From: Diphasiastrum complanatum
Taxonomy: Eukaryota > Streptophyta > Lycopodiopsida > Lycopodiales > Lycopodiaceae
Direction of reading: 5' to 3'
Length of the DNA stretch: 64,000 bases
Assembly: GCA_029204225.1 (NCBI GenBank)
Contig: CM055097.1
Coordinates: 31,261,599 to 31,325,598 of the forward strand
In this document: positions 10,801 to 39,068 of the stretch, in pieces
How positions within the stretch are numbered: position 1 is the stretch's first letter
Layout: every line of letters starts with the position of its first letter
The notes under the pieces: model-generated
What the model was told of the DNA's origin: nothing
What the model saw: only the letters and a program-made list of their open reading frames with translations
Databases searched by the model: none
Made by a program: the position numbers and the translations under genes

Positions 10801-11400
10801 TCATGTGAAATCCTTGCTTTCCAATCTAGCTCGAAGAAAAGCAGTTAATGCAATGTAAGCAGTAGACACTAGGCCAACACCACCCAAGGAAGCAGGAGGG
10901 TGATATTGAGAGGAAATATGAAGATTTGAAATGGATAAAACATTACCAATGGGGAGGTGAGTGAAATGTCGCTTAGAAAACAGACCTTCACAAGTGTCAA
11001 AGGTGTCTGGCCCCAAAAGACGACCAAATACGCCCAGTAAAGTATCATCAAAATCTTGAAGTAATGATATTACGTTAGGTGAAGGAGAAACACAACGTAG
11101 AAGATAGCCAGAACGTTGGGTAAAGCACTGAGTCAAAATTTCGAATGTAATCTGAGAATTTTCGAGCTTTGGCAACAAATCAGAATGACGAGCAAATCCA
11201 TCCAAAGGATCCTGCATAAATGAAATGACAAACCTAGGAGAACCAATGGGAACACCAAGTGTCTTGATGCCACGCTGAGGAGTAATAAAACCCGCAAGTA
11301 AGGAGATATCTACTGGCCTTTTGGGCACCAAGCTATGCACTTAGACCTATTCATTGTAAGCCCAATAGATGAAGTTGGGTATTGTGCCCTTATGCCCTAT
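10801..11400 (-). pseudogene. LINE-type (non-LTR) reverse transcriptase, C-terminal fragment
   Basis: An open frame of 179 codons (11340-10801) begins after a frameshift; just upstream in another frame is IGLTMNRSKCIAWCPKG, the LN..KC..W.P block that ends a LINE RT palm. The open frame then gives GIKTLGVPIGSPRFVISF, a helical region with SGYLLRCVSP, and SLGGVGLVSTAYIALTAFL, matching the thumb-side region of non-LTR RT proteins (GIxxLGxPIG ... YLLR ... LGGLGL). No endonuclease, no YADD core and no poly-A tail are visible. It is a 5'-truncated, frameshifted insertion on the gene's 3' side. Confidence 0.68.
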
Positions 11401-12111: not shown

Positions 12112-13682
12112 CATGAGCATGATATTATCTACATTATATCCATGCTATTGCAAAGAGGGAGAACCAAGAAACAAGAACATTGCTTAAGCAAAGAGTCAAA
12201 TCGAAAATAAGAACCAAATCAATATGTAAGGACAGTACAAATTTTTTTCCTTTGGAAAATTCTCAATTGTCTAGGTGCCTCCTCTTTTATAGGAAGAGGA
12301 GCGTGTTCATGCCAAGAAAGGAGTTTCGAGGATCGTTGCATAGGAGATGAGGAGAAGCAGATTGTTGACATCAGCAAACACACTTGTGCTTTGCTTGACA
12401 CCAACAATTTCATTATTCTCAACTCCATTCATAATAAACTTGATCACATCCAGGTTATATAATGCACAATAGATTCGTTCAATATACGTCCATTCTGCTC
12501 CCCATTATTCCAAGTTCTACTGTAGATGAATTGCATGGGTAGAGCTAGAAATTTCTTATTTCCCATACTTTGGAAGCCAATGCCCTGCATAGAGTTGAAT
12601 GCCAAATTCTAGGAATTCGCTTTTAAGAAACGTGAAAGAAGATTGATTATGCTTTAGCATCTCAAGATGCAATGAATAAAGACTTTTGACATGCAACAAA
12701 CATTCCAGCATGGAATGCTCATGCAGCGTTCACGACCCAGAAATGATCTGACCCTACCGATCAAGTAGACATACCGCTACTGACAAAGCTGTCAACTAAA
12801 CAGTCCTTTTGATTATCCATAGACCCTGGCACAAAATATCTCATACAACTTTTGAGGACTTCAATGTCATGTAGCAAAATGCAGGTCACTGCCTGACATT
12901 TTGATAGAAATTATGGTAAGATAAAGGCATGTAAAAAATTATTGCCATCATGGTCACCCAATAACTGGTATATTGGTGAAGTCCTTTCCTTTTCTTGAGG
13001 TCAGGAGTTAAACTCCAATTCAGCCTCGTAAAGGGACATCCAAGAGAAAGTAAAATGATAATGCCATTTTGGCTTGCAGATTGCTCATCATTCAAAGAAA
13101 TGGGTACTAACTAATTGACATTTGAAATAATCCAACTGATTTCCTTATTGCAGGATATGCTGCTTGACATAGATGATTTTTCTTGTATATGTTGGTGTGA
13201 GCATCGCCATAATATGATTTTGTAATTGGAAAATCTCATCCATATTTTCAGCAATCTCATAGGTAGAGCATACTTTGTAAATAAGTATGCTTGAATCTAC
13301 CGTACCTATAAAGGCGTAGTCAGATTAGCTAAGGTCAACAAAAGCAATTCTCTGCAAAAATATCTTGTAATTGGCGAGATGAAGAAACTCAAGAGATGTT
13401 CAAGATTAAGGATGTTGGTAGCAGGTTTGTGATTTGTACAGCTTGATAATGCAATGATAAGCCTGTCACCATATTATTTATAATGGTGTTATTGATTGCC
13501 GTAATTCTATAAAGACAGAAATTTGCCACTACCCTTTTGAGTCAGGTTCATGTATGCTGACAAAGATCGCCGGGTGTAACATAATGCAGCCTCGGGTGGA
13601 TATGTGCACATGAAGCTATCAGAATCTGAAATACTTTGTAGTGTACATTGCAAACACAGTCTTTGGACTTCCAAGTGGTTTC

Positions 13683-14174: not shown

Positions 14175-14318
14175 TTATTGAAATAACCTGGAAAACCAAT
14201 TATTCCCTTCTTTTGGGCCCATCTGCTTTTTAAGTATTTCTTCCATTTCATTGTAGGAAGGCCGATGCATTGTCACTGCAGCACAGTTACTGTCTCCTTG
14301 AGAATCTATTATAAAGAC
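14175..14318 (-). CDS. Exon 6 of 6, DUF1995-like gene, with stop codon
   Basis: Forty-seven codons plus TAA (14175-14177), after acceptor AATGCAG. It encodes [20 protein letters not shown], then [18 protein letters not shown] and ends [10 protein letters not shown] possible donor (AG/GTTATT) inside the last codons cannot be excluded, but the in-frame stop is the simpler reading. Confidence 0.84.
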   Translation of the reverse strand, partial: VFIIDSQGDSNCAAVTMHRPSYNEMEEILKKQMGPKEGNNWFSRLFQ

Positions 14319-17300
14319 CTGCATTTGGCATTTACTCTCTTAGAAACAATGTAATTTTCCAACTATCCTTAGATGATTTCTTTACACGTCTCAGCATGAG
14401 CCACAAAGCATCATAGAAGCAAAAATATTCAAAAATACGCTGGACTGCAAACCTGCCAATCCCCTGGGTAGCACTTGAGAAGACGCATATTCTGACCCTG
14501 TAAGCGATATTGCTTCAGATAATAAATAATTGAGAAACTTTCCACAAATCGTTCACGTGCCCTCCTTTGATCCCCGAATCCAAAGTCTGACATTACCTGC
14601 AATGAAATCAGAGCAGATTTAAAAAATTGAGGAAAATGACAGAATGCATACATCTGTCTGGTAATTACTTGCTATTCAAAAACAACAAAAATATCTGAAA
14701 CATAGCTTCTTCTCAGTTATGTAACATATAAAGAAAGAGCGAGTGATTAACCCACTGAAGTTACTAAAGGTGGATCTCTGTTACAGCTTTTACTCCCTAT
14801 CTCTATCTCCATTGTTTACAGTTGTATGCACAGATGTACTTTTTGTAAAATACAGAAATGGTTAAGTCACCGACCTGTGGTGAACTTTGTAAAAGAAATG
14901 TAAATAAAACTGTTATTAAAGCTTCTGAGCCTCTGAGTCTCTTGTTGAGCTTTGGTGTAGGCACTGGGTCATTAATTAGAAGTGGCTGGACTGACATCCT
15001 AAAGATTAGGAGAGTTGAACAGTCAATGGGACGTGTCATATGCTCACTAGGACACTTGGTCTAATGAATGAGTGACACATGTCAAGGTTGATCGGTCAAA
15101 CATGACATATGTCACATACTGGGACACGATCCAGTTTATGAGTGACACATGTCAACCTACTCACTTGCCAGTGTGTCAAGGTACTGCCAAGTGGAAGTGA
15201 GCTTAGAAAGACACATTCCTCGTCACAATCTATGCAGCAAAGGTTGGCAGGAGACAAGGCAGCAAGCTCCACCATGTTTCATGCTTTGCGATGTTATGTG
15301 CATTCAGGGAAATCAATAAGGAACAAATTTTCAGATCTATGTGTACTTGATTTGCTATGTCTAGATTGAAGTCTCAGATTGTAGTTTGACATTTGGTATT
15401 AGAGCCTGGTTTTGGAGATCACACAAATCTACAGAAAGGAGCTTTGTCTAGAAAATCAAGTTTGAAAAGTTGCAAATTAATTGTCTACTAGGCCTTCGCT
15501 ACGCCACAATCTCTTCTGCAATCCATCGCTGCGGTTCAGCAACTAACCTCTGACAAATTTCCGGGAAAATCGTCAGTGGTTCACTGCCCTATGGCTGGTT
15601 ATCCATCGCTGAGGTTTCATCTTCGGTGGCTCATCACTGCTCCTGCAGCCCATTATACCTGCAAACAACCTATTTTAACCCAGCCGTAGACCTATCCATC
15701 CTTAAAACAGCTTTCTACAGCTAGAAGAAGCACCGGAAATTGTATTTCTTCCTGTGGCCTGCCTTATAGCACCTGCATCACTGGAATTGGAGTAAAAAAT
15801 TGAAGCTTTCGGGCTGGAAAATCCTGCAGCTAACCTGGTTAGGGTCTTTAATCACTCTTGTTCATAGGAAAGGCTCCTCCGAAGTGTTCTGAAGTCATCT
15901 ACAGTTGGTTGGAACTATACCACAGTCAGTATGAATCCGTTAGAAGGTTCTAGTCCCAAAATACTGAGGATTGAAGAAGTTGCAGCCAAGGTTGACACTA
16001 TGGAAGTGGCCCTATAAAAAATCCTTGAGCAATTGAAGTCGGCAAGATCCTCACAGGAACTTGAAAGAGTTAGTGGAACGGCTATGGTAGTTGTTGAACT
16101 TGTGATTGTTGACAAAGAAGCCAAAGTCCCATCGAAAACAAGAAAATTGCCATCAATTAAGGATCTCAAGATGCCAAAGTTCACTGGTGCAATTGTAGTA
16201 TGCAACACAGACGTAGTTGGATTCAGAAGTGGAAAAAAGCCTTTTCGATGTGCGACAATCGACGGCGACGATTAGAGAATTGCCGAATCTATTTACTGCT
16301 TGCAAGAAACTGCACGTCATTGGTGGAGGAAGGTGGAAAATCTGGTACCTACCACCTGGGATTCCTTCAAACACATGTTTGCTAAGAATTGGTTACCTCT
16401 TGATAGAAGTTAATTGGTGGAATAAGCAGAGTGAAGAGAATTCACCAGGAACTGTTTATTTTGAACTGTATTGCTTATAAGATACATGATTTGTGAGTCA
16501 TCAGGATTCATCTATGAAAGTTGTGTGCATAGAATATAGGAGATTCTTGATATAGAATATTTCTTGCATGAGAAATATATCCCAAGTTATTGACTGTATC
16601 CCAGTGAGCTCATATTGGATGACAGAGTTTAACTAATGTCAAGGATAACCATTGAATTCAGTTGGAATCCAATAGAACTTTGTAAACTCTAGAAGTTGTT
16701 CTAGGTGTTCGTATAAGTTTATGTTATTAAAGACGGGTGTTAAAATGGTCTTTAATTACTTGGTTGATTGTAGAATTTGGAACTCATAGTTTGGTTAAGA
16801 ATTGGGTTGGAAGAATATTCTTGGAATCCAGTAATTTTCCTTAGGGAAAAGATTTCAGAATGATTCTTATATTTCCTGAGTAGTATGTTGTACATATACT
16901 CCAATATCTTACAATGATTAAGTATGGTTTTGGAATCTTGTAAATTATGATTGACGAATCATAAGATTCTAAAAGTTTATGATAGGATCATAAATGGATA
17001 CTTAATTGTCATTAGAAGATTATAAAGAAATGTGAGGATTCTTAAGATAATGAGTAATTCTTGATCAATTGGAAGAGTCGGGGATTTAAATCAGTTATTT
17101 GAAATCCAAATTTCTTTTCTCCAGTGCATACTTGAGATTGTGTGAATCTCACAGGCATTTTCATAATAATTTGTTACTCATGAGGAATTTGCTTACCTTA
17201 GTGGATAAAATTCTACTACAGATTGTAGTCAATGGATGCTTGTGTATTGTTTTCAGCCTAAATCTCCGGGCAATTAGGAGACAGATAAATCTATCAGGAT

Positions 17301-20300
17301 TATATGGTTGCTATTTCCTTGCATGTGATGCTAGGAATAGAGCACTTACTTAACTCAAGAGAGTATCTGGGGTACTCAGAGCTTAGTTAAAATCATTTCT
17401 ATCTTGATGGATCTCCTAAGAGATTTTGGTAGGATGAATTGGAATACAATAATTTTTTATAAATCTAAGTGTATTTGTACCAAGAAGCATTTATGACAGG
17501 TCTACAAGTAATTGTGAATAGTCTTGGACTTGTTTGTTTCTTTAACTTTTGAACATTGATTTCCAATGTAAGGTGACATTTCACCCAGTGATTCATGTAA
17601 ATTGAGGTTACATGAAATGAAGGTGACGTTACTAGATTGGAGAAAATCAGACCCAATATGAAAATTTATCGCTTAATGTACTTCTAAAGGCGAATACAGT
17701 ACTTCAGTGCAAAGATAGATAATTGGAGAATTATTCCATCTCTAAGTACTTATTTGATTATTGACGTCAAACTAAGGATAATGATTTTCAGGATAAATGT
17801 GAAAGTTAAAAGACTGATTTGTTAGCTTTTGAACTTGATCTTCATAATTAGTCGACTGCTCATCCAGAGTGTATCATATAGATTTAGTTTATATGATGAT
17901 GACATTGGATATATTGAAAATTTTCTGTCTTCGATTTTTCTTTTCGTGCGGAAGCTCTTACGGGATCCCAGACACTCGACTATGCATCACAGAACATATT
18001 TTATTCTAGCAATCAAGAGACACAGCACAAGACCAAGAGATACACAAAATAGAGCGATTATATTGTCAGTTTTGGTTTTAGAGCGAGATCATCAGTGTCT
18101 CGCTCGTTGGCGGATTGACTCTCTGCTCTTTCGCTGTGTTCTGCTCGTTGGCAGACTTTCATGCACAGCTATGGTATTTTTTGTTTTCTTACTCTATTCG
18201 CTAAGTCTCTCTCTATTTCTTACAGATCTCTGTATTCACTATCTTTCCACTTTTTCTCTTCTTCTTCTTTTTTAGTTATGATCCAGAGAGGATCGTCTAT
18301 ACCTCCACTATGTGGAGTTTACAAGATAGCTAAAACGTAGAATCACAAGACTAGTTAACGCTAATCAACTAGTTAGTTAGTCTCCGTCGTTGTTATTCGT
18401 TTCAACTGGGCATGAAGCCCGTTGACCTGCCAGCTGGCAGCGCGAAGAATTTCTCTTCGTTTGTTTCGTTCTTTTCGTAGTCTTCGTTCTGCGCCCCTTT
18501 TGCGGTTTGCGGTCCTGGAGGTGTGTTTACGATTCGCGATTGATTCGCGAATCGTTTGTGCTTCGAGTCAAAGACACGTTGACTGTCGCGAATTTTTCTC
18601 GTTCGACCTTCGTGTCTTGTTCGTGCTGTGACAAAGTTGCAGGAGTTCACCATTTCTGACACTCCCTCTTGAACCTTGCAACTTTGTTCGTTCAATCCAA
18701 TTGCCTCTCTTAGCTTGGTAAAGAGTGATTTGTCGAGCGGTTTCGTGAGGAGATCTGCAATCATACTTTCTGATTTTATGAACTGGACCTGGAGCTCTCC
18801 TTCGAGATCAAATCTCGAATGTGATGGTACTTCAGAGGAATGTGCTTCGTCTTTGAATGGAAGATAGGATCCTGGGACAGATAGATGGCACTCTGGGAGT
18901 CCATCATCATCGTGCTTGGCCCCTCTTGTGGTATCCCGATTGCCTCCAACATCATCCGCAGCCACACTACCTCATTCGCCACTTTCGAGGCTACGACATA
19001 CTCAGCTTCGCAAGAGGATTGAGCTATCAGGATTTGCTTTTTGCATATCCAGCTGATTGCAGCTCCGCACGCTATTGTACATCCTCCAGTAATGGACTTG
19101 CTGTCATTCTTGCAGCTCGCCCAGCTCGCATCATTGTAGTGATGCAGCTCGAATCCTTTCTCCTCGTTTCTAGCTCTGTAGGTTTATCCAATATTCTGGG
19201 TACCCTTCAGGTACTGTAGGATTCGTTTGGCCATTTGCCAATGTGCTAGACCAGGATTGGAACAGAATTGGCTCAATGCGTAAACAGAGAAGGCCAGATC
19301 CGGTCTGGTACAAATTGTCAAGTACATCAGACTCCCGATTATGTTCTGGTAGGGTATACCTGCCATCTTCTGTTCTACCTCTTCTGTTTTTGGGCAATCC
19401 TGTTTCGTGAGCTTGGCTCCAGCTATCATTGGTGTGGCTTTCTCTTTGCAGTCCATCATGTGGTACTGCTTCAGCACTTTTCTGGCGTATTCTGACTGAC
19501 TCAAGTGCATTTCGCCATTTGTTCGATCTCTTCTGATCTCCAGCCCTAGGCATTTTGTTGCTTCTCCAAGATCTGTGATCTCGTAGCTTTCAAAAATCTG
19601 ACTCTTCGTGTCTTTGATCAGCATCAAGGAATCTCCTATCATCAGCGAAGCATCCACAAAAATGGTCAGTATCACAAAATCCTTTCCTACTCTTTTGATG
19701 TAGACATTACAGTCTGGTTGAGTAGGGTTGAAGTCTAGAGACTTTAGAAGACCATCAAGCTTTTGTACCAAGCTTGTGATGCCTGTTTTAGACTGTAGAT
19801 GCATCTCTGCAATCAACAGACATATTGTCTGTTGTTGGGGTCTTCATAGCCTTCAAGTTGCTTCATGAAGATTTCCTCCTCTAGATCTCCGTGAAGAAAG
19901 GCTATTTTCACGTCAATCTGGTGAATTTCCAAATTGTACTATGTAGCGTATGCAAGGAGTAGCCTTATGCTTGTCATCTTCACCATGGGCAAATATGTGT
20001 CAAAATAGTCGACACCATACCTTTGCGACAAGCCTTGCCTTGTAGCGGCCAATAGTGCCATCTGATTTTAGCTTTTTCTTATACACCCACATGCAGTCGA
20101 CTATTTTTCTGTTTTCTGGCAGTGGCTCAAATGTCCATGCCTCGTTTTGCCTCATCGACTCGATCTCCTCTGACATTGCCTGCTTCTAGAATTCTCCCTC
20201 TGGACTCTGGATAGCTTCTTGGTATGTTGTTGGCTCTTCTGTGAAGCTGCAATACTCGAACTGCGTATCTTCGCTCCATTGAAGATTGTCAGAATAGCGG

Positions 20301-23300
20301 TCTCGAGGTCTTCTTTATGTTGTTGACCTTCGAGGTTCGTTTCGTCGCTGCTCGAACATTTCTTGTTCGTGGGGTCGATCCTCTACTTCCTGCTGCTCTG
20401 GAATCTGGGGCTCTGCATTCTGATTTGATGTATGTCCTCGATCTCCCTCTTGAATAGGCAGCAGTGTGAAGATCTCATGGCCTCTTTCGTCTTTCAGTCT
20501 AGGGAATGTGGACTCGTTGAACTTCACAACTCTGCTCGAAACAACCTTCTTCGTGGTTGGATCGTAGAGTCTGTACACATGTGTTCCGTTCGAGTAGCCG
20601 ACCATGATTGTTTGCTCGGATTTGTCATCGAGCTTGCTTCTCTTTTCCTTTGGAATGTGCTTGTATGCTACACATCCAAACACTCGTACGTATGACAGAT
20701 CAGGCTTTCTGCCTGTCCACATTTCGTATGGTGTTTTGTTCTCCAGCGCTGTCGTTGTAGATCTGTTCTGCAGGTGTATAGCTGCAGCTATTGCCTCGGC
20801 CCAGAATTGACCTGGCAATTGAGCCTGTGCCATCATGCATCTGGATCCTTCGACTAGCGTTCTGTTTCTTCTTTTTGCCACACCGTTGTATTCTGGTGTG
20901 TATGCAGGAGTGAACTGGTGTTCAATCCCCTGTTCTTCGCAGAATCTTGAGAATTTTGTGCTCTTGTATTCACCTCCATTGTCAGATCTAAGGATCTGTA
21001 TCTTTTTCGAGGTGTGTCGCTCTGCGAATGCCACGAACTTCTTGAAAGAATCGAATACATCGGATTTCTTCTTCAAGTAGTAGATCGTGGTCATTCGGCT
21101 GTAATCATCTATGAATGTTAGAAAATATCTCGAACCTGAGAGTGAATCTGTTTTCATCGGTCCACACACACCAGAGTGGACGAGCTCAAGAACTTCTTTG
21201 GCTCTTCTTCCCTCGTGTGTGAATGGATTCCGATGTTGCTTGCCTTTCTGACAAGCTTCGCAGAACTCAGCCTTTGGCCTTGAAATCTTGAGACCTGTGA
21301 CAATGTCCTTTTGCTCATGTCATACAGGCTCCGCATGTTCAGATGATACATTCTTCTATGCCAGAGCTGATCTTCGTTTTCTAAAGCATTTAATATGCTT
21401 TTAGAGTTGCTGATTATTTTGGCCTGGTAGAGATTTCCTTCTTTGCATCTGACCGTCAACAACTTGTTTGTCGTCTTCTCGATCATATGGCAAGTGTTGT
21501 CGTCGAACAAAACTCGAATGCCTAGATCTGCCATCTTGGAGACAGATAGCAGATCCTTTCTGAGTGAGGGCACATAGAGTGCTCCTGGCAGCTCTGCTTG
21601 GCCTGACAATGTTCGTAGCTGTAGAGAGCCGATGCCTTTGACATCGTGTCTGCTTCCATCGCCTAGAATCACTGCTCTGTCGTTTTCGATTTCACGAAAG
21701 TTGATCAAGATCTTCTTGTTGCAGGTTATGTGAGATGTTGCTCCTGAATCAATGACTACATCGTAGTCGTGTTCAGAGTAGCTTGTCGAAGCTTTGTCGA
21801 GTATCGTGAAAGCTTCGTCACCTCTTTCAACATCCTTTGATGACTCTGCAACGTTTGCCTTTTCAGCTTTGTTTTTCCTTTTTGGGTTGAATCTGCAGTC
21901 GTATGCAAAATGCACAGTGCATGCAAGGTATTGCTGGATTGAACCAGCATTTGTTGGCCGTATGGCCTGGTTTGTGGCAGTGATCGCAGGAAGAAGATTG
22001 CTGATTCGAGGACTTCGTCTTCTCGAATCTTGGCTTGTTTTTGTTCTTCTTCTTTCCTTTCGTGAAGAGAGCCTTCTCTTGATCACTGCTTCACTCTCCT
22101 TCGTCTCTCATCAGTCTCTCATCAGCGACAAGACTGACTGCTTTGTCGAATGTCATATCTGGTAGACGCAGTATGAGCATTCTCAGCGGCTGATAGGACG
22201 TCGGTAGAGATTTCATGAAGTACATCAACTGTTGTGGTGTTGGGACCTGGTGCTCCTGTCCTGATGTAGCGACTTGAGCGAAGATCGTTCTGATCTTCTC
22301 AACGTGCTGGTCTAACTGGTTGTCGTCCCACCGTATGGATTGCAGCTGATTGTGAAGGTGCATAACTGAAGCTGCAGTCCTCACTTCATACTTCTGCTTT
22401 AATCTTTCCCACGCTGCATGGCTGTTTTCGCAGTCTTCAATCTGCATGAGTAGATCTTCATTTATGGACGAAACGATGATCGCCATTGCGCGCTCATCCT
22501 TTCTGATCCATTCAGCTCTCCTCGGGTCTCCCTCTGGAGGCTGCACCTCTAAGAGCTCGGTCACCGACCAGATGCCTTTGCCCTTCAAGAGTGGATTTTG
22601 AATTTCCAAATTTTGTAATTTGCACTATCAAGACTGATTGCTACTCTGGTCTGGATTGTCGTAGCCATATTGTGTTGTCTAGAAGAATCAATGTTGGGAT
22701 ATCAGAAGTGATAATCTGTTGGCTCTGATACCATGTCGCGGAAGCTTTTTCTTTCTTGTGTTTCGTGTTCGTCCTCTTTCTTTTGATTCGCGAACAATTT
22801 TCCGTCTTCGATTTTTCTTTTCGTGCAGAAGCTCTTACGGGATCCTAGACACTCGACTACACATCACAGAACATATTTTATTCTAGCAATCAAGAGACAC
22901 AGCACAAGACCAAGAGATACACGAAATAGAGCAATTATATTGTCAGTTTTGGTTTTAGAGCGAGATCATCAGTGTCTCGCTCGTTGGCGGATTGACTCTC
23001 TACTCTTTCGTTGTGTTCTACTCATTGGCAGACTTTCATGCACAGCTATGGTATTTTTTGTTTTCTTACTCTATTCGCTAAGTCTCTCTCTGTTTCTTAC
23101 AGATCTCTGTATTCACTATCTCTCCACTTTTTCTCTTCTTCTTCTTTTTTAGTTATGATCCAAAGCGGATCGTTTGTACCTCCGCTATGTGGAGTTTACA
23201 AGATAGCTAAAACGTAGAATCACAAGACTAGTTAACGCTAATCAACTAGTTAGTTAGTCTTCACCGTTGCTATTCATTTCAGCTGGGCATGAAGCCCGTT

Positions 23301-26300
23301 GAGCGGCTGTCACAAGCCAGTCTCTCCAAGCTCGTGAATCCTAGAAGCCGGTGTGTAGAATGAACCTCCCAACCATAGGCACCCCCTCCTTGAGTCCTTC
23401 TACCTGCTATTCCCGTCACCTGGCACATGGCATCCACCTGTGGGTGATCACTCCACTTGGCATGCCTAGCCCCTGTGACCTGTGAATACTGAGTGACTCA
23501 TAGGGTACCCCCGTGCCTCGCCAAAGACCTGTGACCCTCTTGGTCACCCCGACTACTTGCCGGCTAGCATCTCGTCACTGACGGCTAGGGTCCCAACGGT
23601 CAAGACACACCGCATCTCTGACAACTTGTTAGGCGGCCCCACCGGGTCACTGCTCGTGACGCACCGGTCCCAACTTGGGACTGATGTCCTCCTCGGTCAC
23701 TGGCCCTTGCCAATACTTGGCCTCAGGCCCTCAGGTGACCGGCCGTGCCAAGGTCATGATAGAGTCGTAACTGGACTCTAACAATCCTTCCCTCCTCTGG
23801 CAAGTCATCGGTCCTCGATGACAAACTCTGGGTAAGACTTCTGCAACGCCTGTCGCGTCTCCCAGGTAGCATCTGACAACGGATGCCCTTTCCAAGTTAC
23901 TAGATACTCTTGAAGGAGACGATTCCGCAATCGTCGCTCCCTTCGATCTAGAATTCTGTCTGGCCCATAACCTGTGGTGTCTTTCTCCTCAAGAGACACT
24001 AGACCTTCCACCAGACTATCGCCATCATGCAAACATTTCTTCAGTTTGCTAACATGGAATACTGGATGCACCTTGCATCCAACAGGTAGCTGTAGCTTAT
24101 AAGCTACTTGGCTCACCTTCTTAATAATCAACCATGGTCCACAATACCTAGGAGATAACTTGGTGCACTTTCCTGTGCGTAGCACCTTCAACTTCGAAGG
24201 GACTAGTAAATACACCCAATCTCCATTCTCAAATTCCCGATAGGTACAGTTCTCACAAGCATAACTCTCTGCCCTAGCTACAGCTTTGGACAAGTTATCT
24301 CGTGCCAACTCTAGCTTCTGCTGCATCTGAGCCAAAAACTCTACAGCACTAGGTACCCTATGCGGAATTCCTATGATTGTAGGACTCAGTGGCCTGAAAC
24401 CATAATTGAGCTCAAATGGACTCAATCCAGTGGACGCATGTCTTTTATCATTGTACGCGAACTCCAATAGTGGTAAATGCTTTACCCAGTCTGTTTGCGT
24501 ACTACTCACATATGCCCTAAGCATATCTTCCAAGATCTGATTCACTCGCTCTGTCTGGCCATCCGTCTGAGGATGCTCAGAGCTACTCATCCGCAAATGT
24601 GTTCCCAACTTGGCGAACACCTCAATCTAGAAATTTCCCGTAAACTTGGGATCCCTCTCAGAAACTATGGACTTCGGAAGACCATGGAACATGACAATAT
24701 TCTGAATAAACAACTCAGCCACTTGCGGAGCTGTGACCTTCTTGGTCGTTGCGATGAAATGAGCCATCTTGGAAAACCTGTCTACCACTACCATAACGAA
24801 ATTGAATCCATTCTGGGTCTTGGGTAGCCCAACAATAAAATCCATAGAGATGCTTTCCCACCTTCCTGTAGGTATCTCAAGTGGATGTAGCAAGCCCGGA
24901 GGACTTACTCTCTCGGCCTTGTTCACCTAACAAGCCGTGCAACGCTGGACATACTCTCTTACATCCCGCTGCAGTCGTGGCCAGAAAAAATGCCTTCTCA
25001 AAAGCTCACTGGTCTTATCAATACCAGGGTGCCCTGCGCAGGGACTATCATGGCATTCATGAAGTATCTTACGACGAAGGTCCTCCACGTCTAGCACGAA
25101 AACTTTTCCATTTCTCAATAACATACCATCCTTCACGGTGTATGTTAAATATGTATTGGTGTGTGCCTCTATGGAAGCGACAGCCTCGACTGACTCTTCT
25201 GTTTGGTCGACTACCTTGCGCGCATTAGGCCACACACGCTAACAATGCGGGTCCTTTTCTTGAGCCTTCTTAATCTCCTCCATGAGACCACTGTCAACCA
25301 CAGTAAAGCTCATCTGATGCAGTATATGAGATAGTGCATCAGCGACCACATTTTCCTTCCCTCTTCGGAAGCGAATTTCCAAATGAAATTCCTGCATCAG
25401 GTCGGCCCACTGAGCTTGGCGGCCCTTCAAATCTGGCTGAGTGCAAAAATACCTTAAGTATGATGATTTGTGTACACATAAAACTCGGTGCCATATAAAT
25501 AATGTCTCCACACCTTGAGTGCATGTATAATCGCATACAGCTCTTGCTCGTGTGTAGGATATCTCTGTTGAGCTGGTGTCAACTTCTTACTCTCAAAGGC
25601 TACTGGTCTACCCTCTTGGCTCAACACTGCACCTACGGCAATGCCACTTGCATCCGTCTCTAGGTCAAAAGGTTTCTAGGTATCCACAATCTTGAGAACT
25701 GGAGCCGTGGCCACAGACTCCTTCAAGTTCTCAAAACGTTGCTGAGCTTCAGCATCCCATCAAACCACAGTGTTGTTTTTCCTTAACTGGTCCGTTAAAG
25801 GAGCAGCTATCCAGGAATAATTCCTAACAAACCACCGGTAGAACTTACAAAAGCCTAAGAAAGACTGTAATTGGCGTATATCGGCAGGCCTCGGCCACTT
25901 CTTAACCACAGCCACCTTGGCTGGGTCAACCGAAATACCCTCAGCTGTCACTACGTGACCCAAATACTCGACACGAGTCTTACACAACTCTGTCTTCTGA
26001 GCATTGGCATACAAGACAGAAGCTTGTAACTTGCCCAAAACGGTCTTGAGATGAATCTCATGCTCCTCGACCGCTTTACTAAAAACCAATATATCGCGCA
26101 AGCCATCGTTCATGAGCATCATGAACGTGGCTGGGGCATTGGTTAACCCAAATGGCATAACCAAAAATTCATAATGACCGAAACGAGTTGGGAAGGCCGT
26201 CTTCTGGACGTCTTCATCTCGAATCCGTATTTGATAGTATCCACTTTTGAGATCTATGTTACTGAAAATAGTGCACCTTGCAACGCATCCAGTAGATCAT

Positions 26301-29300
26301 CAATCTTGGGCATCGGATACCTGTGCTTTACAGTGATCTTATTCAATCCCCTGTAATCTACACACATCCGGAAACTACCATCCTTTTTTTTAACAATTAA
26401 AATAGGAGAGGCAAAAGGTGAATAACTTGGACGGATGTACCCCAGCTTGAGATACTCCTCCAACATCTTTCTGACTTCCTCTTCCTCTTTTAGGCTCATC
26501 CTATAAGGAGGCCTACATACCGGACTTGCCCCTGGAACGAGCTCAATACGATGATCAACGTTCCGACTAGGCGACAATCCCTCTGGCATGTTACTAATTA
26601 GCACGTGTTTAAACTGCATGCGGATGGACTTCTCCAACTCACTTGCTGGGTCACATCTAGGCTGTAATGCAAATACATGTGCACTAGGGGATGCAAAAGT
26701 AAATGAAGCTTCTTGTGGTTTATTAGTGAGTGTGCTTATCTGATTATTACCAACATAAGAATCAAAACTAGAATCAACATTCACATAACACAACCACAAA
26801 TACTGAATCTCCATTCTCTTTATTTGCATATAGGTAACAAGAGGACCCTCAACAGATGGTCTCTCCCCCTTTAAGACATGAGACATACCCTCATGCCCGA
26901 ACTTATACACATGTGATTTAGAATCTATAGCGGGCTGCTTGACGTCGAATTTCTTCCAAACGGCAAAAGCTTTTCACGAACGGTCAATTAGCAGTAGGTC
27001 GCCCTCCTACTAGGCCCAATCTGAAACACTAACAGCAGAAATCGGAGAAGTTATGTCCAATCCAAAAATCTGACCTGTTTTTTGCTTGGAAACCGACTTT
27101 TTAGTGAAACAGAGGCAAATCTGCTCCAAAACCAGCGTATAATGGCTCTAAAGGATCGCTATGGATACTAGAAACATGCTCCCAAAATCTGATCAGGATC
27201 TGAGAAGGTTCCAGAGAGTTATAAGCGAAAAACCTTCAGGAAAAATGCGCTGGCCCTCCAAAACTATAAAATTTTCTGAAATCTCAGAATTTGCAGCATG
27301 AATCCCTGCTGATCTACAGCGACTACCCACTAGAAATGATCTGAGACAGATCTCCCTCAAATCTGAGCACTATAGACCAAGTTATGGTAAAAAAACCAAG
27401 CTTTTTCTCACTTTCTCTCTCTAGAACGGACGTTTCTCTCTCTAGAACAAGCGTTTCTCTCTCTAGAATGAGACTTGATACCAATTGTCACAAGCCAGTC
27501 TCTCCAAGCTCGTGAATCCTAGAAGCCGGTGTGTAGAATGAACCTCCCAACCATAGGCACCCCCTCCTTGAGTCCTTCTACCTGCTATTCCCGTCACCTG
27601 GCACATGGCATCCACCTGTGGGTGATCACTCCACTTGGCACGCCTAGCCCCTGTGACCTGTGAATACTGAGTGACTCATAGGGTACCACCCTCGTGCCCC
27701 GCCAAAGACCTGTGACCCTCTTGGTCACCTCGACTACTTGCCGGCTAGCATCTCGTCACTGACGGCTAGGGTCCCGACGGTCAAGACACACCGCATCTCT
27801 GACAACTTGTTAGGCGGCCCCACCGGGTCACTGCTCGTGACGCACCGGTCCCAACTTGGGACTGATGTCCTCCTCGGTCACTGGCCCTTGCCAATACTTG
27901 GCCTCAGGCCCTCAGGTGACCGGCCGTGCCAAGGTTATGATAAAGTCGTAACTGGACTCTAATAGCTGCCAGCTGGCAGCGCGAAGGATTTCTCTTCGTT
28001 TGTTTCGTTCTTTTCGTAGTCTTCGTTCTCCACCCCTTTTGCGGTTTGCGGTCCTGGAGGTTTGTTTACGATTCGCGATTGATTCGCGAATCGTTCGTGC
28101 TTCGAGTCAAAGACACATTGACTGTCACGAATTGTTCTCGTTCGACCTTCGTGTCTTGTTCGTGCTGCGACAAAGTTGCAGGAGTTCACCATTTCTGACA
28201 ACCTAAGGGGGGGAAGTTACACTTTTACTCCCTATCCCGGTTGTTTACAGTTTTATGCACAGATGTACTTTTTGTAAAATATAGAAATGGTTAAGTCACC
28301 GGCCTGTGGTGACCTTTGTAAAATAAATGTAAATAAAACTTTTATTAGAACTTTCGAGCCTCTGAGTTGCATGTTGAGCTTTGGTGTCGAGTACTGGGTC
28401 ATTAATTAGGAGTGCTGGACTAACCTCCTAAAAAGTAGGATTTGACTAGTCGATGGGACATGTGTCATATGCTCATTGGGACGCTTTGTCCAGTATATGA
28501 GTGGCACATGTCAAGGTTGTCCGATCAAACATGACACATGTCGCATGCTCACTGGGACATTTGGCCCAGTGTATGAATGACACATGTCAACCTACTTGCT
28601 TGCCTATGTGTCAGGGTGCTGCCAAGTGGCAAGAGTCAACTATGCATGGAATTGGCCATGTGTCGACGTTAGGAAGGAAATAAGAACTTGGCCTGAAGCT
28701 CTTGTACATATCATGTTGAAAGCTTATTGTTACCAAAGAGAATTTGGCTTTCTATAATTCCAACTACACTTCTCAATGCTATCATATTTGAGGAGCCTAA
28801 CATTGACAATTGAAAGTTGCAAGATCTTAAGAAGAGCAGATTTGTAAAACTCTTTGACACAAAAGGAAAAACCTTAAAGTTTTATGATACTTTTCCTTAG
28901 AAATGCTCCTCATAAATTGTTATGAAAAAGATCAAAGAAAAATGATGACATTTAGCAAATAGTAGGCAAAAAGTGATGCATCACGTCTCAATCTGCAACT
29001 AAGAATACTGTATGGACATCAATGGCTCAAAGAGAGAGATATTTTATGTCTTTTGAGTACTTGAAGGTGCATAAAACTGAAAGGTACACTTCAAGCTCAA
29101 ATCATAACAATGTGAGCATAAACATCTCTGAAAAGATTTTAAACTGAGACTCATAAATAAATGAGCTGACAATAACTCTATGACACAGCAAGCCAACAAT
29201 AGAGTTTCATAGATCTGCTCAACTAAATAATATAGAGGTTGCCCAGTAGTATCATGGGGTAGAGATCTGAAGGTCATGATGGTAGCTGAGGTGGCTAATG

Positions 29301-32300
29301 CGAATGTTGTACATTGTGGTAGGTGTTTGTTGTGTATACATCATGGTAGGAGGCAAGTGTGGTGCACTTATACGTATGGCAATGTGTGGTACATGAAGTT
29401 GATGGTAATTGACATTGTAAGGTTGTTGTTTCTAGTCCCATTCACATTCTTATCACTTGATTTTCCAAGCTGGGGTATTTTATCCAACTCAAGCTCATTT
29501 GCTTGCTTGGAGTTTTTGAAATCATTTTTAACCAAAATTTTAACGCTTTTCCTCCAGTTTTTTGCACATTAGTTATGGAGACATTTGCAAAAGGTTCTCC
29601 TCAGGCACCATCATCTTCAAGGCCCATGAATATAGAAGATATGGTGCAGGCAGTTGATTTGCGTCGGCAACAAATTTGTGGACATGAATGCAAAGCAAGA
29701 ATGGGCCAAGCAAGAGCTAAGGGCCATGAATCAATCAATTCAATCCCTTGCGCCCCCAACATGCCCACAAACCGATGGACGTCTCAATTCTACATGCATG
29801 TTTACTATCTAGAATTCATGTTAGGATTATGAGCATACATTTCTCTAATCCTTACAAATCAAACTACAATTTAGATCTTTGATGCCTTCAACAGTGGAAC
29901 AATTAAATCAATCTTATTGCTTGCATCGACATTTGCAAAATAGAGAAGTTTGAATATGGTCCGTCAAATAGTTCTGAAATTGTAAATTGTTGGTCACATT
30001 ATGTTCCAATTCCAAACTTTATAACAGACATGCCTTCATATTTGATTTCAATGAACTATGCTACATATTCCAAATTAAGTAGAAAACAAGTAATGCACAC
30101 TTATCTCTAAAGGATTGGCTGCATAGTGTCACCTGTCCAATTTGCCATTGAGCATTGAATAGAATCAACGGTCTGCCTTGCACTCTTGCTAAAGCTTCAA
30201 CTTTTGACAAAGAGTCTGCTGTGGGAAACAACGCTAATGCTATCTGCATAAATACAAAACATAATTCTCAGCAAGGCTTAAATGCCAACAAAGTTGTATA
30301 GCAACTCTAGGTCTTCTACCAAAAACCTTCATGACATCTCCAAAGATCGTGTACTTATTTTGCCATCAATTATTTTACAATAGTCAAGCATATAATATCA
30401 AAGAAGTATATACTTCTCTCTAAGATAATTCCATAAAATTTAAATTCAAAACATATTCCTAGTCATTGAAAATGAGAGGATTACAAATGCAAAAAAGACT
30501 GTAGAATTTGAACAAGGTGAAACATGGGAAAAGAGGCCTAATTATCAATTATCAACTTGGTATCTCCAAAAAGCAAAGAATAATCCACACATAGATAGGG
30601 GTAAGTACAAGGACATCAATTGCAAATATCGAAATTGGGAATTTAATATCTCCATGTCTCCACCTAAATCTGTTGTGATGAGATCCAAAACCATCCCATG
30701 GTATGTCTAAGACTATGAGGCATGCTTGTGTCAAGATAAAGTGCTAGCATAGAATCACATGTATCTCCTACATTGAGGAAGAGTATGCAATAGAGGGGTA
30801 GCTTGACCTCCAATGGATATGTCCAAAATCTCTTGCTATATAACTTGTCAATGTACCACATGATGTAGGAGTTGCTCCCCTCTAGAAGATTTGAGAAGAT
30901 CTACATATAGTAGAATCCATCAACTCTATGGCTTGTAAGTACCAAGATAGATGATGGTCTCTCTCATGAAGCTCTTTAGTAGATTATGTAAGCACAATCC
31001 TTGGGTATCTCCACCTATCCTCAACTATATCCCCAAATACCATGACTCTCCAAAGGTAGATGATGGATACGAAAATGGCCTCTAGATGTACCAGTGGTAT
31101 TGCAAAACTCTTCCAAGATGAACCCATGAGTTGCCCAATACCACACATGATATCATAGACACATAGAAAACTTAAAATCTAACCTAATTAGATGTAATAA
31201 GCCATAGGCACTACGTCTTTGCCACATACAAGGTTGTCAGCATGGCCAATGTGTCAAACAAGTGACACTTCCACACTATGTATTGCGTCATTAGAAGCAA
31301 AACTTCTCCATGCCAACTATAACAAAGACTGACCCTTTCCTAGATGACTTACAAACATTTGCTTCATGCCAAAGATTGGTCCATTGAAAACCCCAACTGT
31401 GTCTATAAAGAGATACAACAATTGGCTTGCCAATGTAAAAGTCCATCCTCTCGGAAAAGTTCAAGATGTATTGAAAACTATGACCCTAGTCTACTTGATT
31501 TTAACCTCGAGCCCTCTCTCCTAACAGAACCAATGTGATGTAAAAATATGTTTTCATGATCCCTCTTTAGAAGAAGAAGTTGGGTCCACAACATAGTATC
31601 GATACAAGCATATCACTTAACCTCCTTCCAATATCACCATTGTGTCAGATGATTACCTTGAATATATAATCTAAAAAGAATATGAGAAAGTGGAAATCCT
31701 TGTTATACCCAAATGGTGCTGATAATTGTCTATGAAGTACCCTCATGTGTCCTAGAACATCCCACTATGCTCTCATATAATGCCATAGCTGCAAGCATCA
31801 ACTCTAGTGGTATAGTGTCCAGTCCTAAATATAAATGCATAGAAAAGGCTTTCAAGCATGTACATGAATAAATAAGGCTTGTGGCCAATAGCATGAATAC
31901 AAGTAATCAATAACTGAATGTAGATTTGCGAAATCTACATCATATATGGTCCATGCCATTTATGAACCCAATAGCCTTGTATCTTGTAATTCATACCTCT
32001 ACTTGGCTAAGAAAATCATTGCCCCCAATGTAGGCAAGTAAGAAAGAGCAGCATCAAGGAGGAACATGAAGATGAGCAAGAGCACCTTGACAGAAGATAG
32101 TAGCAGTGACAGCATGAGCCTAATCAACAGATAGTGGTGTATGATAGAAAATATCATTGGATTTGTCGCCTATAGCAACTATGTTGTAACAAACTTATGA
32201 AATAACAGCAAGTAGAAAGGGAAACAACTATTAATCATCACAAAAAACAAAATCCCAAGGGGCATCATCCTCAATAGTAGCACATGCACGTAATAGACTA

Positions 32301-35300
32301 ACATGAAAAATATCAAATGCGTGAGTGGCAGGAGAAAGCTCAACACAATTTGTCATAAGACTGAGGCACTCAATGATCTGAAAAGTCCCATAATAGCAAG
32401 GTGTGAGCTTCTCAGCAGAAGCATGACCTATAAAAAGTGATGACAAGCAGAATGGAATCTGAGATAAACATAGTCACCCTCAAAAAGCTCCACATGACGG
32501 TGATGATAATCAACTACAGACTTATACCTCTACTGTATCTATTATACATGCAATAATCTTGTGAGCACAAGAAAGATAAGAAGCAAGGATAACAGGTGCA
32601 TCATCAAGTGGTTTACGAATACTTGGCAGGCAGGCGAATAGCCATGAGCACAAAATGGAGAAACACCCATGCTAGAACTGATAGAGCTATCATTATTTTA
32701 CTTAGCAAGGCATAAATGTTGATCCCAATCATGACCAATAGGAGAAACATAATGGTGTAAATTATCTTCCAATATATGATCAATGACCTTAGAATGGCCA
32801 TTAGCATATGAGTGGTAAGTAGATCCCATAAGTATCTTGACATCCAAGATACACCGGTTTAAAATCCAAAACTAAACTTGGTATCCCAATCAATAAGAAT
32901 GGATCGCAAAAGACCATGTAGATAGAATATCTCTAAAAGAAAAATAAAGCCACACTACTCTGTTGAAATAGTACTTCTAATAAGATCGCAAAAGACCATG
33001 TAGATAAAATATCTTTGAAAGAAAAATAAGGCCACACTACTCTGTTGAAATAGTACTTCTAATAAGAATGAAATGAGCAAACTTAGAAAAACAATTGACC
33101 ACCACCAGGCAGGAGTCATGACCACATTGTGTACGAGGCAAGCCAATGATAAAGTTCATGGAAATATCGGTCCACAATAGGAAAGGTATAGGCCAACTCT
33201 ATAAAAGACGACCAGCTTTCTCGCGAGACACTTGTTGCAAGCACAAAAAGTACAATTGCAGATAAGAAGGATAAGCTCGGACTTCATAGATGGCCAATAA
33301 AAATTCTCCTTGAGATGGGCAAAGGACTTTTGAAACCCAAAATGGCCCCAATTGGAGAAAGATGAGCATTAGAAAAGAGCTAACGACTTACAACAAGGGG
33401 ACTAAGAATACGAAGGGAACCATAATGAAATAGACGGTGGTTGACAACAAAGTATACTTGATGATGGCAAGAAGATAGGAGTGGAGTAGTAACATAAATG
33501 TCATGAAAAGCTGGACAAGTAGTATAGGTGAAGGGCAGGGCATCATACAATTGGTCATAACAAGGCTATACATAAGGACAAGGGAATTAGACAAAGAATC
33601 AGAAATAACATTGCTCTTCCTAGGTTTGTAATGATTATCAAAATTGAAAGAATGAAAAAACTTAAGCGAGAGATATTGGCGATCACTAACATCTTTTTGA
33701 GTGTAAAGGTAGCGTAAGGACTGGCAATCAGTAAAAATATCAAAAGGAACATGATAAAGATAACGACGCCATTTCTTAAATGCAAAAATAATGGCGAGAA
33801 GTTTCTTTTCATGTGTAGAATATCGTTGTTCATAGAAATGGAGATGACTCTACTCGTAGGCAATAACACAACATTGTTGGCATAGCATAGGCCCTTTACC
33901 AAATGGAGATTGCATAATCACCCATGCATCAGTCACAACAATACAACGTCGGTCAAAGTCAAGGAGGCATAGGACACAAATACAATGATAAGTAGAGTCT
34001 TGTCAAAAGCAAGCTAGAATTCAAGGCTCCATACAAAAGAGGCATCCTTCATCAAGAGAGCATGCAAAGGAAAAGACACTGTGGGAAATTGAGAACAAGT
34101 TTTTGGAGGTGAATGGCAAGACCAAGAAACATGCGAAACTCCTAGACATCAGTAGGAACAAGCCAAGCATGAATAACTCAAGTCTATTGAGATCACACAC
34201 CATTAGAAATGAGGAAACCCAAAAGACTTGATTTCAACATTAGTAAAGACGCATTTAGAATGTTTGGCATATAGCTAATCTTCGGTCAGGAGGAGAAAGA
34301 AAGTTCGTAAGTGGGATACATGGTGTTATGTACTTATATTCCTGCCTTAGTGTGAACACGTCATACTTGTAAATTTGTAAATATTAATGGCTCACACCGG
34401 CCTGTGGTGTTTCATAAAAATGAAAATAGCAGGTTTCTGGTAACTTGTTGTCCTGCTTATATTTGGTATAGGGTACTGGGTCTTAATTTAGAGGCTGCTG
34501 GACTGACCTCCTAAAAAGTAGGAGAGTTGACCGGTCAACGGGACACATGTCATATGCTCATTGGGACACTTGGTCCAGTGCATGAGTGACACGGGTCGCG
34601 GACGGTCCTCCTACTCGCTTGCCAATGTGTCGGGGTACTGCCAAGTGGCAAGTGTCGATTGTGCGTGGGGTTCGCCATGTGTCGACGTTAGGAAAGGGTC
34701 AGGGTTAAGTGAGTGCTTGAGGATTGTGTATAAGTGAGCCCAGAGAGATAGGCAATCCTCATCATAATCTATGCAGCAAGTGGCTGGGAGGAGAGTTAGC
34801 AGCAGTGCTCTTATGTGGGATAGTTTGCCATGTACTTTGAAGAGAAATCAATAAAGTGGATATTTCGGAGCCTACTTTGGTGTGCTTTGAGTTGTATTCA
34901 AATAGCTTTGTAATACATGGGCTATCAAAGTAGTTCCTTTCCAGGATTGTGTGGGGATTGGCATCACTTTCGTTTGCAGTTAGGGTTTATTGGATGCTAG
35001 GTGGGTCAGTGCCCTCCTACATGAGATTTTCTGAGCATTTTGAGAGCCCTGAAGCTTATAGATTGCAGCCCTATGGTGGATTGCTGGTCCTTGGGCAGCC
35101 TTTGAGCATCTACTGTTGTTTAGCCTGCTTTTTCTCTATGCTTTTGTAAAAATCAGCCTTGCTTAGTTTTGTAAAAGTGTTTGTAACTTTTTCAATTCTC
35201 AGTATTTTTCGAATCTGACAGTTGCTATAGTCTTCTGGTGGTAGGTCGTTGGTGGGGTAGTGCCTATCAGATTCCTATTCTGTTATTTCCTCTTGTTTTC

Positions 35301-38300
35301 AAAGATTGTCAGTTTCAAACCCTTGTTTGCTGGTTTTTCAAGAAAAAGAGTTCGTGGGTTGCCAGATTTCGACTGTAAAGGATCTATTCTATCCAGTTCT
35401 TTTAGGAATTCAAGGTAGTCCCTCTGTGTAGCTTGTTTGTGCTTTGTTTCAAGTGCTTTAGTTGCTGGTTTTTTGCATAATTTCGCAAGTTGCTCTGTGT
35501 TTCCTGGCTAGTACTAGTGAGAGTAGCATCTGGCAGGTGCAAGACAATACTTCAGCTAACCTGGACCGTGAAATTAAGAGTGAGTTTGCAGATGTGTTTA
35601 TTGATGATTTGCCATCTGCATTACCGCCTAATAGAAATGTTGAACATAAGTTTGAGCTTATTCCCGGATCCTGTCCTGTATATAGACCACCTTATAGAAT
35701 GAGTTTGAGAGAGGAAGAGGAGGTTAGGAAGATGCTAGAGGACTATCTTGCACATGGGCAGATTAGGCCTAGCTTCTCACCTCTTGCCTCGCCGATCATT
35801 CTAGTAAAAAAGAAGGACGTATCTTGGCATATGTGTGTGAGGCCTTAATAAGATTACTATTACGCATCGATATCCTATGCCGCGTATTGATGATTTGCTT
35901 GATGCTCTTCATGGTGCCACTATATTTAGTAGGATAGACTTGAAGAGTGGGTATCATCAGGTTAGAGTTCGTGAAGAGGATGTTCAGTGTAATCGGGAGG
36001 CATGCAATACTAGAGTATGTACCATGCTTTCTAAAAGAGAGATAGATGTTCTATCAAACAACTTAACAAGCTTTGAGTTGATAAAAGAAGTACTGTTTAG
36101 CGAGCTAATACAATGAGATTAGAGAAATGGAGAATGTGTTCGCCGAGAAATTTAAAATTAGCGAGAGCAATCAACATATCTTGTTCCAAATCTTTCACCA
36201 CTGATTCTTTGGACATGAAAATGCAAAAATAAGGATAGTTGATTTTGAGAAGAAGGAACTTTGATATAGCTAGAATCATGAAACAAAGCTCAAGTTAATA
36301 TACAGGCTTGGCACTCACTTTACATGCCCAATATTTTCCAGTGCCTTAAGCTCAGATTCTCTTCAACCTGACAAAAAACTAACAGAATACACACTATAGC
36401 AGTTTCGGGCAAGCCAAGGAATAGCTCAAATAGGCCTTTGTTCTAACTTGATGCCCCTAAACCTTCCAGCCTGTGATTCCACTAATAACTTCATGCAAAA
36501 GAAGTTCTAAGAACATCAGCTTATTCTCTCCTACCAGAAGTAGTAAGGACTTGCTGGCTATTCTGATATACATGTGTCATGTATACCTATTCCCTTTCAC
36601 ATTCTCAAATTGCAGAAAAGGAGATCTGAAAACTTGCGGTATGAATCAGCATAAGAAAAGCATCAACTTACATCATCATTTTCCCAAACTCCAACTGCAT
36701 CCCCCTCATCAACAATGTACTTCTGAAAAGTGATTTCTTCAGTGGGATCTCTCTTAGTAAGACCAGTAAGCATTAGGTTCACCATCGGAACAGCAGCTTT
36801 GAATTGTTGTTGAATTCCTCCCTAATAGCACACGCACCGATAGTATCACTTCCAATTCAGCACCCATCAGAAAATCTACCAAAAATCAACATGAATGTTT
36901 GCGTAGGTAGATGGTCACTCCTGTACAATCACACCAAAGTGATACAACACTTCCAAGAATGCAGTCAAACCGGCCAGTCATCAAGATCAGTCGCCCCAAT
37001 CAATGGAAGAGGCAGCTCCAACTGCAAACGCCCTTTTCCATTTTTGATAGCTTGACGACAAGCAAAGCGGGCCTGAGATCATAGTAGAGGTAATATTAAC
37101 ACAGAGACCGAGGAAAAACAAGGACTGGAGCAGTTTTTTTTTTTAACTACAAAATAGAAACTGTAACTTGTTTGCCATCATCTACGAGAAAGGGAAAATA
37201 CTTATGTCATGTGATTTATGGCTAGAACTGTTTGTTTGACATAAGATTTTAAAATTATGCTTTGTATATAATCATAGTTGCAGCAAATCGTGATTCACTG
37301 GGTTTCACGATTCGCGATTCGCTGCAGCGAATCGCCCAAAAAAAAAAATTCTTCACCCAAAAAATTTTGGGACCTGAAATGTACTGGCATTGAACCTATA
37401 ATATACTGAAATTGAACCTGAAACTACAAGAAACACAACTTATAGGTCCAATTCAGTATATTATATAGTACACAGATGAACTGGAGAACTCTAAGCATTG
37501 GGTTGGATTTTCAAGTACTTCAAAGAGACAATGAAATACCAGCTTTTGTTTCAATACTTGAGGAGAGTCAAAACTGTATATCACTGTCCCAACATGTTGA
37601 CTGCACAGAAGGTCAAAGTTTTTCAAAATTCACTGTTGTTTTACCAGAGAGACGGTAGAAGGTGGACATTGTCAAGAATTTGGGCCTCAGGGCCACGCAC
37701 ACATGTACCCACGCAAGCCGCGTACTGGTATCCCAACGCCAGTCGCCTAGCCACCCGCTATCCGTCTAACCCCCAAAAGTGCTGGTACCAGGGGATAGAG
37801 AATGACACCATAGAAATTCTGACCAAAGGACTGAGTGAATAAAAGTTTAAATAGGAGCTGCAACGTTTAAGGATGTTTCTTGAGTGGGAGCATTGGAGGT
37901 GACAATCAACATCCTTATAATGCCAAATATTTCCATAACGCGACTAGTTGTAGGAAGTGGGTAAATCACTTAATCAGTTAGACAGTAAACTAAGATGAAT
38001 CTGTATTTGTTGGCAGCAAATAGCACCATAAGCATCTATATTCAGACCAAGCCCACATCAGTTAGACAGCAATTTTTGTCACATTGTGACATGTGTTGCT
38101 CTGATATCAGTCCACCGTTATATATAGCCTTCCAATCGCTACTATTGTCATTTTTCTCTTCTCTGATTCTTCTTCTTGATTTAGGCACTTCTAAGCCTGC
38201 TAATTTCAGCTCGTATTGTATACAGTTTACAGCCTACCTCTGATTGTCCATCACCTTCAATATGATTTTGTCACCTAGTTAATAACATTACGTGAAAGAT

Positions 38301-38702: not shown

Positions 38703-38756
38703 TGCGCATAATTGGTGTAGGATAAGACTTCCTTTGCTTTAGGTATGAGTTCCAAT

Positions 38757-38965: not shown

Positions 38966-39068
38966 GTTGCTTGGAGGCCCATGGTAAGGATATAATGGCT
39001 CGTCCTCTCATCTTGTCGAGAGAGGAGAGGGCGAGCCATTATATCCTTACCATGGACCCACAAGCACC
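38966..39068. repeat. Foldback repeat with 43-bp arms upstream of the gene
   Basis: Left arm (38966-39009) and right arm (39025-39068) pair over CCATGGTAAGGATATAATGG and flanks with a few mismatches; a 15-base loop separates them. A diverged third arm copy is at 38893-38937. It may be a small inverted-repeat transposon remnant or an miRNA-like hairpin. Confidence 0.75.

Follow-up and report, generated by a model that had tools for sequence, protein, structure and literature searches.

A DUF1995 gene with transposon-stretched introns in the clubmoss Diphasiastrum complanatum, the doubtful ends of its public model and the probable loss of its branch in flowering plants

Results

Six minus-strand exons form one reading frame

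The window analysed here, C6:31261599-31325598, is a stretch of 64,000 nucleotides from the genome of Diphasiastrum complanatum, a member of the Lycopodiaceae, and the gene under study lies on its minus strand. Exon 1 (38702-38433, 270 nt) carries the start codon, a Ser/Thr-rich stretch without acidic residues and an acidic end, DDDYDDDAA. Exon 2 (37072-36971, 102 nt) encodes 34 residues that bear the family signature, and exon 3 (36821-36672, 150 nt) ends in VWENDD. The isolated exon 4 (30243-30133, 111 nt) ends in NAQWQIGQ, while exon 5 (14596-14453, 144 nt) runs from VMSDFGFG to YPGDWQ and exon 6 (14318-14175, 144 nt) from VFIIDSQG to NWFSRLFQ and the stop codon. Scripted on the window, the five introns measure 1360, 149, 6428, 15536 and 134 nt and all have GT..AG borders, and the joined exons give a 306-residue frame with a final stop and no internal ones. 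All exon lengths are divisible by three and all introns are in phase 0, so that inner exons could be skipped without a frameshift. An earlier note had read these six exons from the letters alone, including the distances of 6.4 and 15.5 kb that separate exon 4 from its neighbours, and the script reproduced its coordinates, lengths, borders and open frame exactly.

All 306 residues are identical to a public Diphasiastrum complanatum protein, O6H91_06G062800 (P0001; 100% identity over 100% of the length), which is labelled 'hypothetical protein'. This is the same gene, without any difference. A gene model of identical form had thus already been predicted and made public, and the claim of the earlier note that it is hidden and easily missed by gene finders did not hold.

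The DUF1995 domain is assembled from all three exon clusters

The joined protein matched PF09353 with 109.1 bits against a cut-off of 26 (E-value of 3.8e-31), residues 90-286 covering profile positions 10-197 of 197, which bears out the previously suspected resemblance to DUF1995. Taken alone, exons 2 and 3 matched positions 11-53 (16.5 bits) and exon 4 positions 86-119 (21.3 bits, E-value of 0.0003), both below the cut-off. Exons 5 and 6 matched positions 128-197 with 58.6 bits and were the only cluster above the cut-off by itself. The domain is therefore made up of consecutive, non-overlapping parts from all three clusters. In tblastn searches, proteins from Marchantia, Cryptomeria and Adiantum as well as the homologue P0002 each matched exons 2, 3, 4, 5 and 6 singly, in order and on one strand (weakest E-value of 5.2e-6), and none of them matched one exon cluster only. 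Two more matches elsewhere (E-values of 0.05 and 0.48) look like chance. As the earlier note had proposed, a single host gene spans the 24.5 kb.

We then compared the exon junctions with 17 chosen land-plant relatives in pairwise alignments, ten of which were counted as land plants by similarity (P0017, P0036 and P0128 were left out), and looked for gaps in twelve residues around each junction. The junctions were gapless in 16 of 16 relatives for exons 2 and 3 (one relative was not aligned there), 17 of 17 for exons 3 and 4, 17 of 17 for exons 4 and 5, and 16 of 17 for exons 5 and 6. Around the junction of exons 1 and 2 just two of the 17 aligned, one of them without a gap. The Diphasiastrum protein has the subfamily signature and keeps 56 of 58 highly conserved columns, defined as at least 85% conserved among 118 other alignment rows after columns with fewer than 60 residues were dropped.

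An AlphaFold2 model built with 119 sequences had a mean pLDDT of 78.3, with 160 of the 306 residues at 90 or above. Residues 91-290 form a mostly confident domain (ten-residue means of 74-97), in which residues 111-130 around the family signature are lower (mean pLDDT of 74), and exon 1 is of low confidence. Comparison of the model with solved structures gave no clear fold match.

Splice points recur in other plants

P0014 and P0036, isoforms of a single transcript, differ by exactly the 48 residues that are equivalent to exon 5. The junction context in P0014, NPQWQDGQ followed by IISDFGFG to YPRPWE and then VFVV, places the junctions on both sides of exon 5 at the same residues as in Diphasiastrum. 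P0014 groups with conifers in the tree (support 100/100). P0036 itself represents an in-frame loss of the SDFGFG-bearing exon in a probable gymnosperm, which would delete a core region of the domain and may reflect either regulation or splicing noise. Isoform X2 of Physcomitrium (P0017) and P0018 are set apart by a cassette of 25 residues, whose end directly precedes ARQACQQ, the position of the exon-2 acceptor here. We took P0018 to derive from the same gene as P0017 because, from P0017 residue 21 on, the two are identical outside the cassette. In a paralogue on C8 of the Diphasiastrum genome, the frame that we read as an exon stops at YPYDWH, directly before a GTAAG, which is the position of the junction between exons 5 and 6.

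Retrotransposons fill the two long introns

Introns 3 and 4 owe their length to inserted LTR retrotransposons, which are nested in intron 4. Intron 4 (14597-30132, minus strand, 15,536 nt) is filled by this nest. A minus-strand Copia-type element at 17919-28200, with ends defined by alignment, carries gag, integrase and RVT_2 domains. Its right LTR lies at 22796-23302 and 27966-28200, split by a Gypsy-type element, and the corresponding repeat pairs are 95.3% and 96.2% identical. The Gypsy-type (chromodomain) element inside the Copia LTR (23308-27962, minus strand, with Chromo and RVT_1 domains) has LTRs at 23308-23781 and 27486-27962 that are 97.9% identical. An older repeat pair (14780-15194 and 28216-28629), 83% alike, surrounds the nest and probably represents the LTRs of an older element. 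Subtracting 14780-28629 would leave an intron of about 1.7 kb.

Intron 3 (30244-36671, minus strand, 6,428 nt) holds retroelement remnants, including an RNase H remnant at 33391-33849 and, at 34462-34592, a fragment akin to the older repeat. It also contains an 82-nt unit in two tandem copies that are 95% alike (32902-33067). Introns swollen by retrotransposons are ordinary in large plant genomes. Outside the gene, we noted by eye a near-perfect inverted repeat, GGCTCGCCCTCTC...GAGAGGACGAGCC, at 38980-39040, about 0.3 kb upstream of exon 1, which is possibly a small transposon or a hairpin. A minus-strand open frame of 179 residues downstream of the gene (10801-11340) had no Pfam match.

Both ends of the model are doubtful

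In most aligned relatives, a stretch like YSLPVTLEESVNQ precedes exon 2, with variants in algae, and the protein closes with a tail like ELKFNQDSLK. Both are missing from the Diphasiastrum model, whose exon 6 stops short of the E[LF]xFNxxSL tail that is conserved in most aligned relatives. P0014 is without the tail, Physcomitrium isoform X2 is without the N-terminal stretch and the algae are variable, so neither feature is strictly defining for the subfamily.

A scan of both strands of the window with four motif profiles found no convincing N- or C-terminal end, and the best sites were unrelated to the ends of the gene. The best minus-strand scores were 20.4 of 56.6 (N), 19.4 of 58.8 (C), 20.0 of 47.6 (short C) and 20.8 of 47.5 (short N), against 18.8, 17.8, 17.6 and 20.4 on the plus strand, raw values that had no shuffled control on either strand. 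Three more specific candidates were rejected. For a cassette exon in intron 1, 85 open segments between AG and GT or GC were compared with seven homologue peptides. The best score was 21, and 20 simple shuffles, which used GT ends only and so offered somewhat fewer candidates, gave 17-33. An extension upstream of exon 2 as in P0002 was ruled out, as the frame crosses a stop. A C-terminal look-alike at 13024, AELEFNS followed by a stop, scored 14.6 and by eye had no fitting splice frame.

Past the stop at 38741, the sole in-frame ATG lies in exon 1. This exon found no homologue match, either in the alignment of relatives or in tblastn with four homologues, and its support consists solely of an open frame, a GT donor and the agreement with the public model. 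Its residues 27-78 include 17 Ser/Thr, five Lys/Arg and no Asp/Glu, a composition that looks like a transit peptide, and the protein is probably imported into the plastid by way of this leader. Either the public model is wrong at its ends or the ends were lost in this lineage. On balance, we lean towards exon 1 and the 3' end being as annotated.

The gene is probably single-copy

Searching the 1.74-Gb genome for PF09353 (E-value of at most 0.001) yielded five matches: exon 5 of the window, two loci on C3, one on C8 and one on C22. By eye, none of the four other loci reads as this gene's type, one of the two C3 loci having been read. The gene is thus probably single-copy, although the search reported exon 5 alone of this gene and could therefore miss a partial second copy. 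The nearest paralogue found was the C8 locus (L003, C8:62708347-62708760), which is of the SDFGFGPWKR type (NPQWRASGQIVSDFGFGPWKR) and which we take to resemble LPA3. The two C3 loci (L001, C3:75822311-75823000, minus strand; L002, C3:76290147-76290836, plus strand) have equal scores and each consist of one 378-aa open frame. They face opposite ways, separated by about 0.47 Mb, and either stem from a recent duplication or were duplicated in the assembly.

The subfamily is spread over green plants, with no named angiosperm

A midpoint-rooted tree of 44 rows (43 different) chosen from 148 proteins had strong support for 17 of its 40 inner branches. Twenty-one streptophyte rows, from Mesostigma (so named by us on the strength of its code name), Closterium, Chara, mosses, liverworts, lycophytes, ferns and conifers, stood apart from the rest (93/84). 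The Diphasiastrum protein falls within the land plants, where its branch of 1.11 is the longest. It does not group with Selaginella, nor do the bryophytes form one group. Under the midpoint root, the prasinophytes Cymbomonas and Bathycoccus lie beside the streptophytes. The subfamily tree follows green-plant history broadly, not exactly. Two chlorarachniophyte rows group with a pedinophycean green alga (96/85), a position that would fit their having gained the gene with their plastid. A row labelled as the haptophyte Pavlova lutheri (P0086) stands among chlorophyte rows (97/74), which reflects either contamination of the data set or transfer.

Among the organism-named rows of the matches listed in three protein searches (50 of 50, the best 120 of 299 and the best 120 of 203, many rows being nameless), there was no angiosperm. 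The same listings hold bryophytes, Selaginella, a fern, conifers and many algae. Judged by these named rows among the matches listed, with no angiosperm positive control, the branch was probably lost in flowering plants. A scan of GTDB contigs for the subfamily signature gave 13 pattern matches and no bacterial relative. PF09353 itself was found in Synechococcus elongatus, one of 14 control genomes.

Discussion

The six pieces are one ordinary nuclear clubmoss gene with transposon-stretched introns, and we are all but certain that the gene exists and that exons 2 to 6 are spliced in the way described. Introns 3 and 4 are presumably removed in the plant. That the exon clusters are separate genes, or debris in order by accident, is vanishingly improbable: nothing more than the distances between them speaks for it, while they encode consecutive non-overlapping parts of one domain on one strand, four junctions are gapless in nearly all aligned relatives, and the 322-aa homologue P0002 is encoded whole on a 1,251-nt contig. 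A decaying pseudogene, that is, a formerly normal copy that grew through retrotransposon insertions, lost both its ends and evolves rapidly, would account for the missing conserved ends, the long branch and the transposon-crowded 24.5-kb span. We consider it very unlikely, as 306 codons have kept clear of stops and frameshifts, every splice site is intact, nearly all of the highly conserved columns are retained, and the genome search for the family, in which one exon of this gene was reported, showed no second copy of the type. More weight, if still well short of an even chance, goes to a real gene whose model has the wrong ends, with exon 1 an artefact and the true 5' exon and 3' end elsewhere or diverged beyond recognition. 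The unmatched exon 1, the missing C-terminal tail and the missing counterpart of the 25-residue N-motif cassette that Physcomitrium has just before the exon-2 acceptor all point that way. Conversely, intron 1 held no cassette above its shuffled control, and the highest N and C motif scores of the window stayed far under the maximum and were barely better on the gene's strand than on the other. The reading frame that precedes exon 2 runs into a stop, and the moss X2 isoform is likewise without the cassette.

With respect to function, Chlamydomonas has three DUF1995 genes (PMC8448359). Mutants in one of them, lpa3, are described as acetate-requiring and as having a very low Fv/Fm, and reintroducing the gene rescues them (PMC8448359). 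A single Cre06.g281800 mutant had an Fv/Fm near zero, rescue not being among what is reported here for this one mutant (PMC8448359), and under the name LSAR4 the gene falls within the light-sensitive photosynthesis cluster of a second screen (PMC9110296). DUF1995 is also reported to be absent from the non-photosynthetic alga Prototheca zopfii (PMC11302234), and a review describes LPA3 as acting with ALB3 in CP43 assembly (PMC4754418). The clubmoss DUF1995 protein would enter the plastid, probably through the exon-1 leader, and, by analogy with Chlamydomonas LPA3 and LSAR4, act in the stroma as a soluble factor for photosystem II (PSII) biogenesis. Because the Arabidopsis LPA3 paper, which underlies the CP43 claim, was retracted (PMC8448359), we regard a role in PSII biogenesis or assembly as roughly evenly balanced. 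For the reading as a whole, a probably single-copy DUF1995 gene with a probably plastid-imported product and a role in PSII biogenesis by analogy, we have a cautious preference.

The same gene could instead serve another trait that angiosperms lost, such as dark protochlorophyllide reduction (chlB/L/N) or flavodiiron electron flow, both of which share its apparent distribution as described (PMC7650654, PMC12344627). The accounts of Chlamydomonas DUF1995 mutants in PMC8448359 describe PSII defects and, in the passages concerned, do not mention greening. Bathycoccus keeps a member of the subfamily (P0147) and, to our knowledge, Mamiellales are without chlB/L/N. We think a function tied to such a trait unlikely. 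Equally unlikely, in our judgement, is the more ambitious form of the preferred PSII reading, in which the branch would be a PSII biogenesis factor from the base of the green plants, passed vertically through algae, mosses, lycophytes, ferns and conifers and dropped by flowering plants along with plastid Psb30/Ycf12 of the CP43 module. The link is suggested by a single apparent shared loss and a single consistency check. For the latter, we take Micromonas to be in the same order as Bathycoccus, which retains its member. Micromonas has ycf12 (PMC5344333). In Synechocystis, Psb30/Ycf12 is part of the CP43 module (PMC9458580). What speaks against the link is the mild psb30 phenotype. The text of a lycophyte plastome paper, as far as it was available, does not mention psb30 (PMC6590440), and a full-text literature search for Psb30, Ycf12, CP43 and angiosperms together returned no paper. 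If true, the branch would be a candidate CP43-module assembly factor, as was proposed for the paralogue LPA3, and would be a part of PSII that was replaced in angiosperms.

The architecture of the gene is ordinary, and its interest lies in the doubtful ends of its public model and in the likely angiosperm loss. For the existing model, whose 111-nt exon is stranded far from both neighbours, exons 2 to 6 are confirmed as right, and likely errors or lineage-specific trimming are flagged at both ends. If the angiosperm loss holds, this is a photosynthesis gene that is invisible to work on Arabidopsis and that moss, liverwort and Chlamydomonas genetics can test directly.

Comparison with known DUF1995 proteins

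Among named relatives, the Diphasiastrum protein shares DUF1995, the subfamily signature and SDFGFG with proteins of Marchantia (MPTK1_4g23770; 61% identity over 70% of the query), Adiantum (GOP47_0012426; 49% over 90%), Cryptomeria (SUGI_1098740; 52% over 83%) and Chlamydomonas schloesseri (HYH02_007220; 42% over 68%). It differs from them at both ends. The Marchantia, Adiantum and Cryptomeria proteins have an LP/VPxTxxES-type stretch before the exon-2 boundary that is missing in Diphasiastrum, and C. schloesseri has an IPIPDGP stretch at this N-terminal position instead. All four end in an FNxxSL tail, which the Diphasiastrum protein is without.

GreenCut2 membership requires an Arabidopsis homologue. 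In Table 2 of PMC8448359, the GreenCut2 field of Cre06.g281800/LSAR4 is blank, which would fit a gene absent from Arabidopsis and agrees with LSAR4 being the orthologue of the Diphasiastrum gene, without proving it. LSAR4 and Cre08.g369000 are the other two Chlamydomonas DUF1995 genes, and one of them is probably the Chlamydomonas orthologue. The third, LPA3/CPLD28 (Cre03.g184550, At1g73060), likewise contains DUF1995 and is described as needed for PSII accumulation in Chlamydomonas (PMC8448359). Unlike the apparent distribution of the branch described here, LPA3 is present in Arabidopsis, and in Diphasiastrum the nearest paralogue found is the separate locus on C8.
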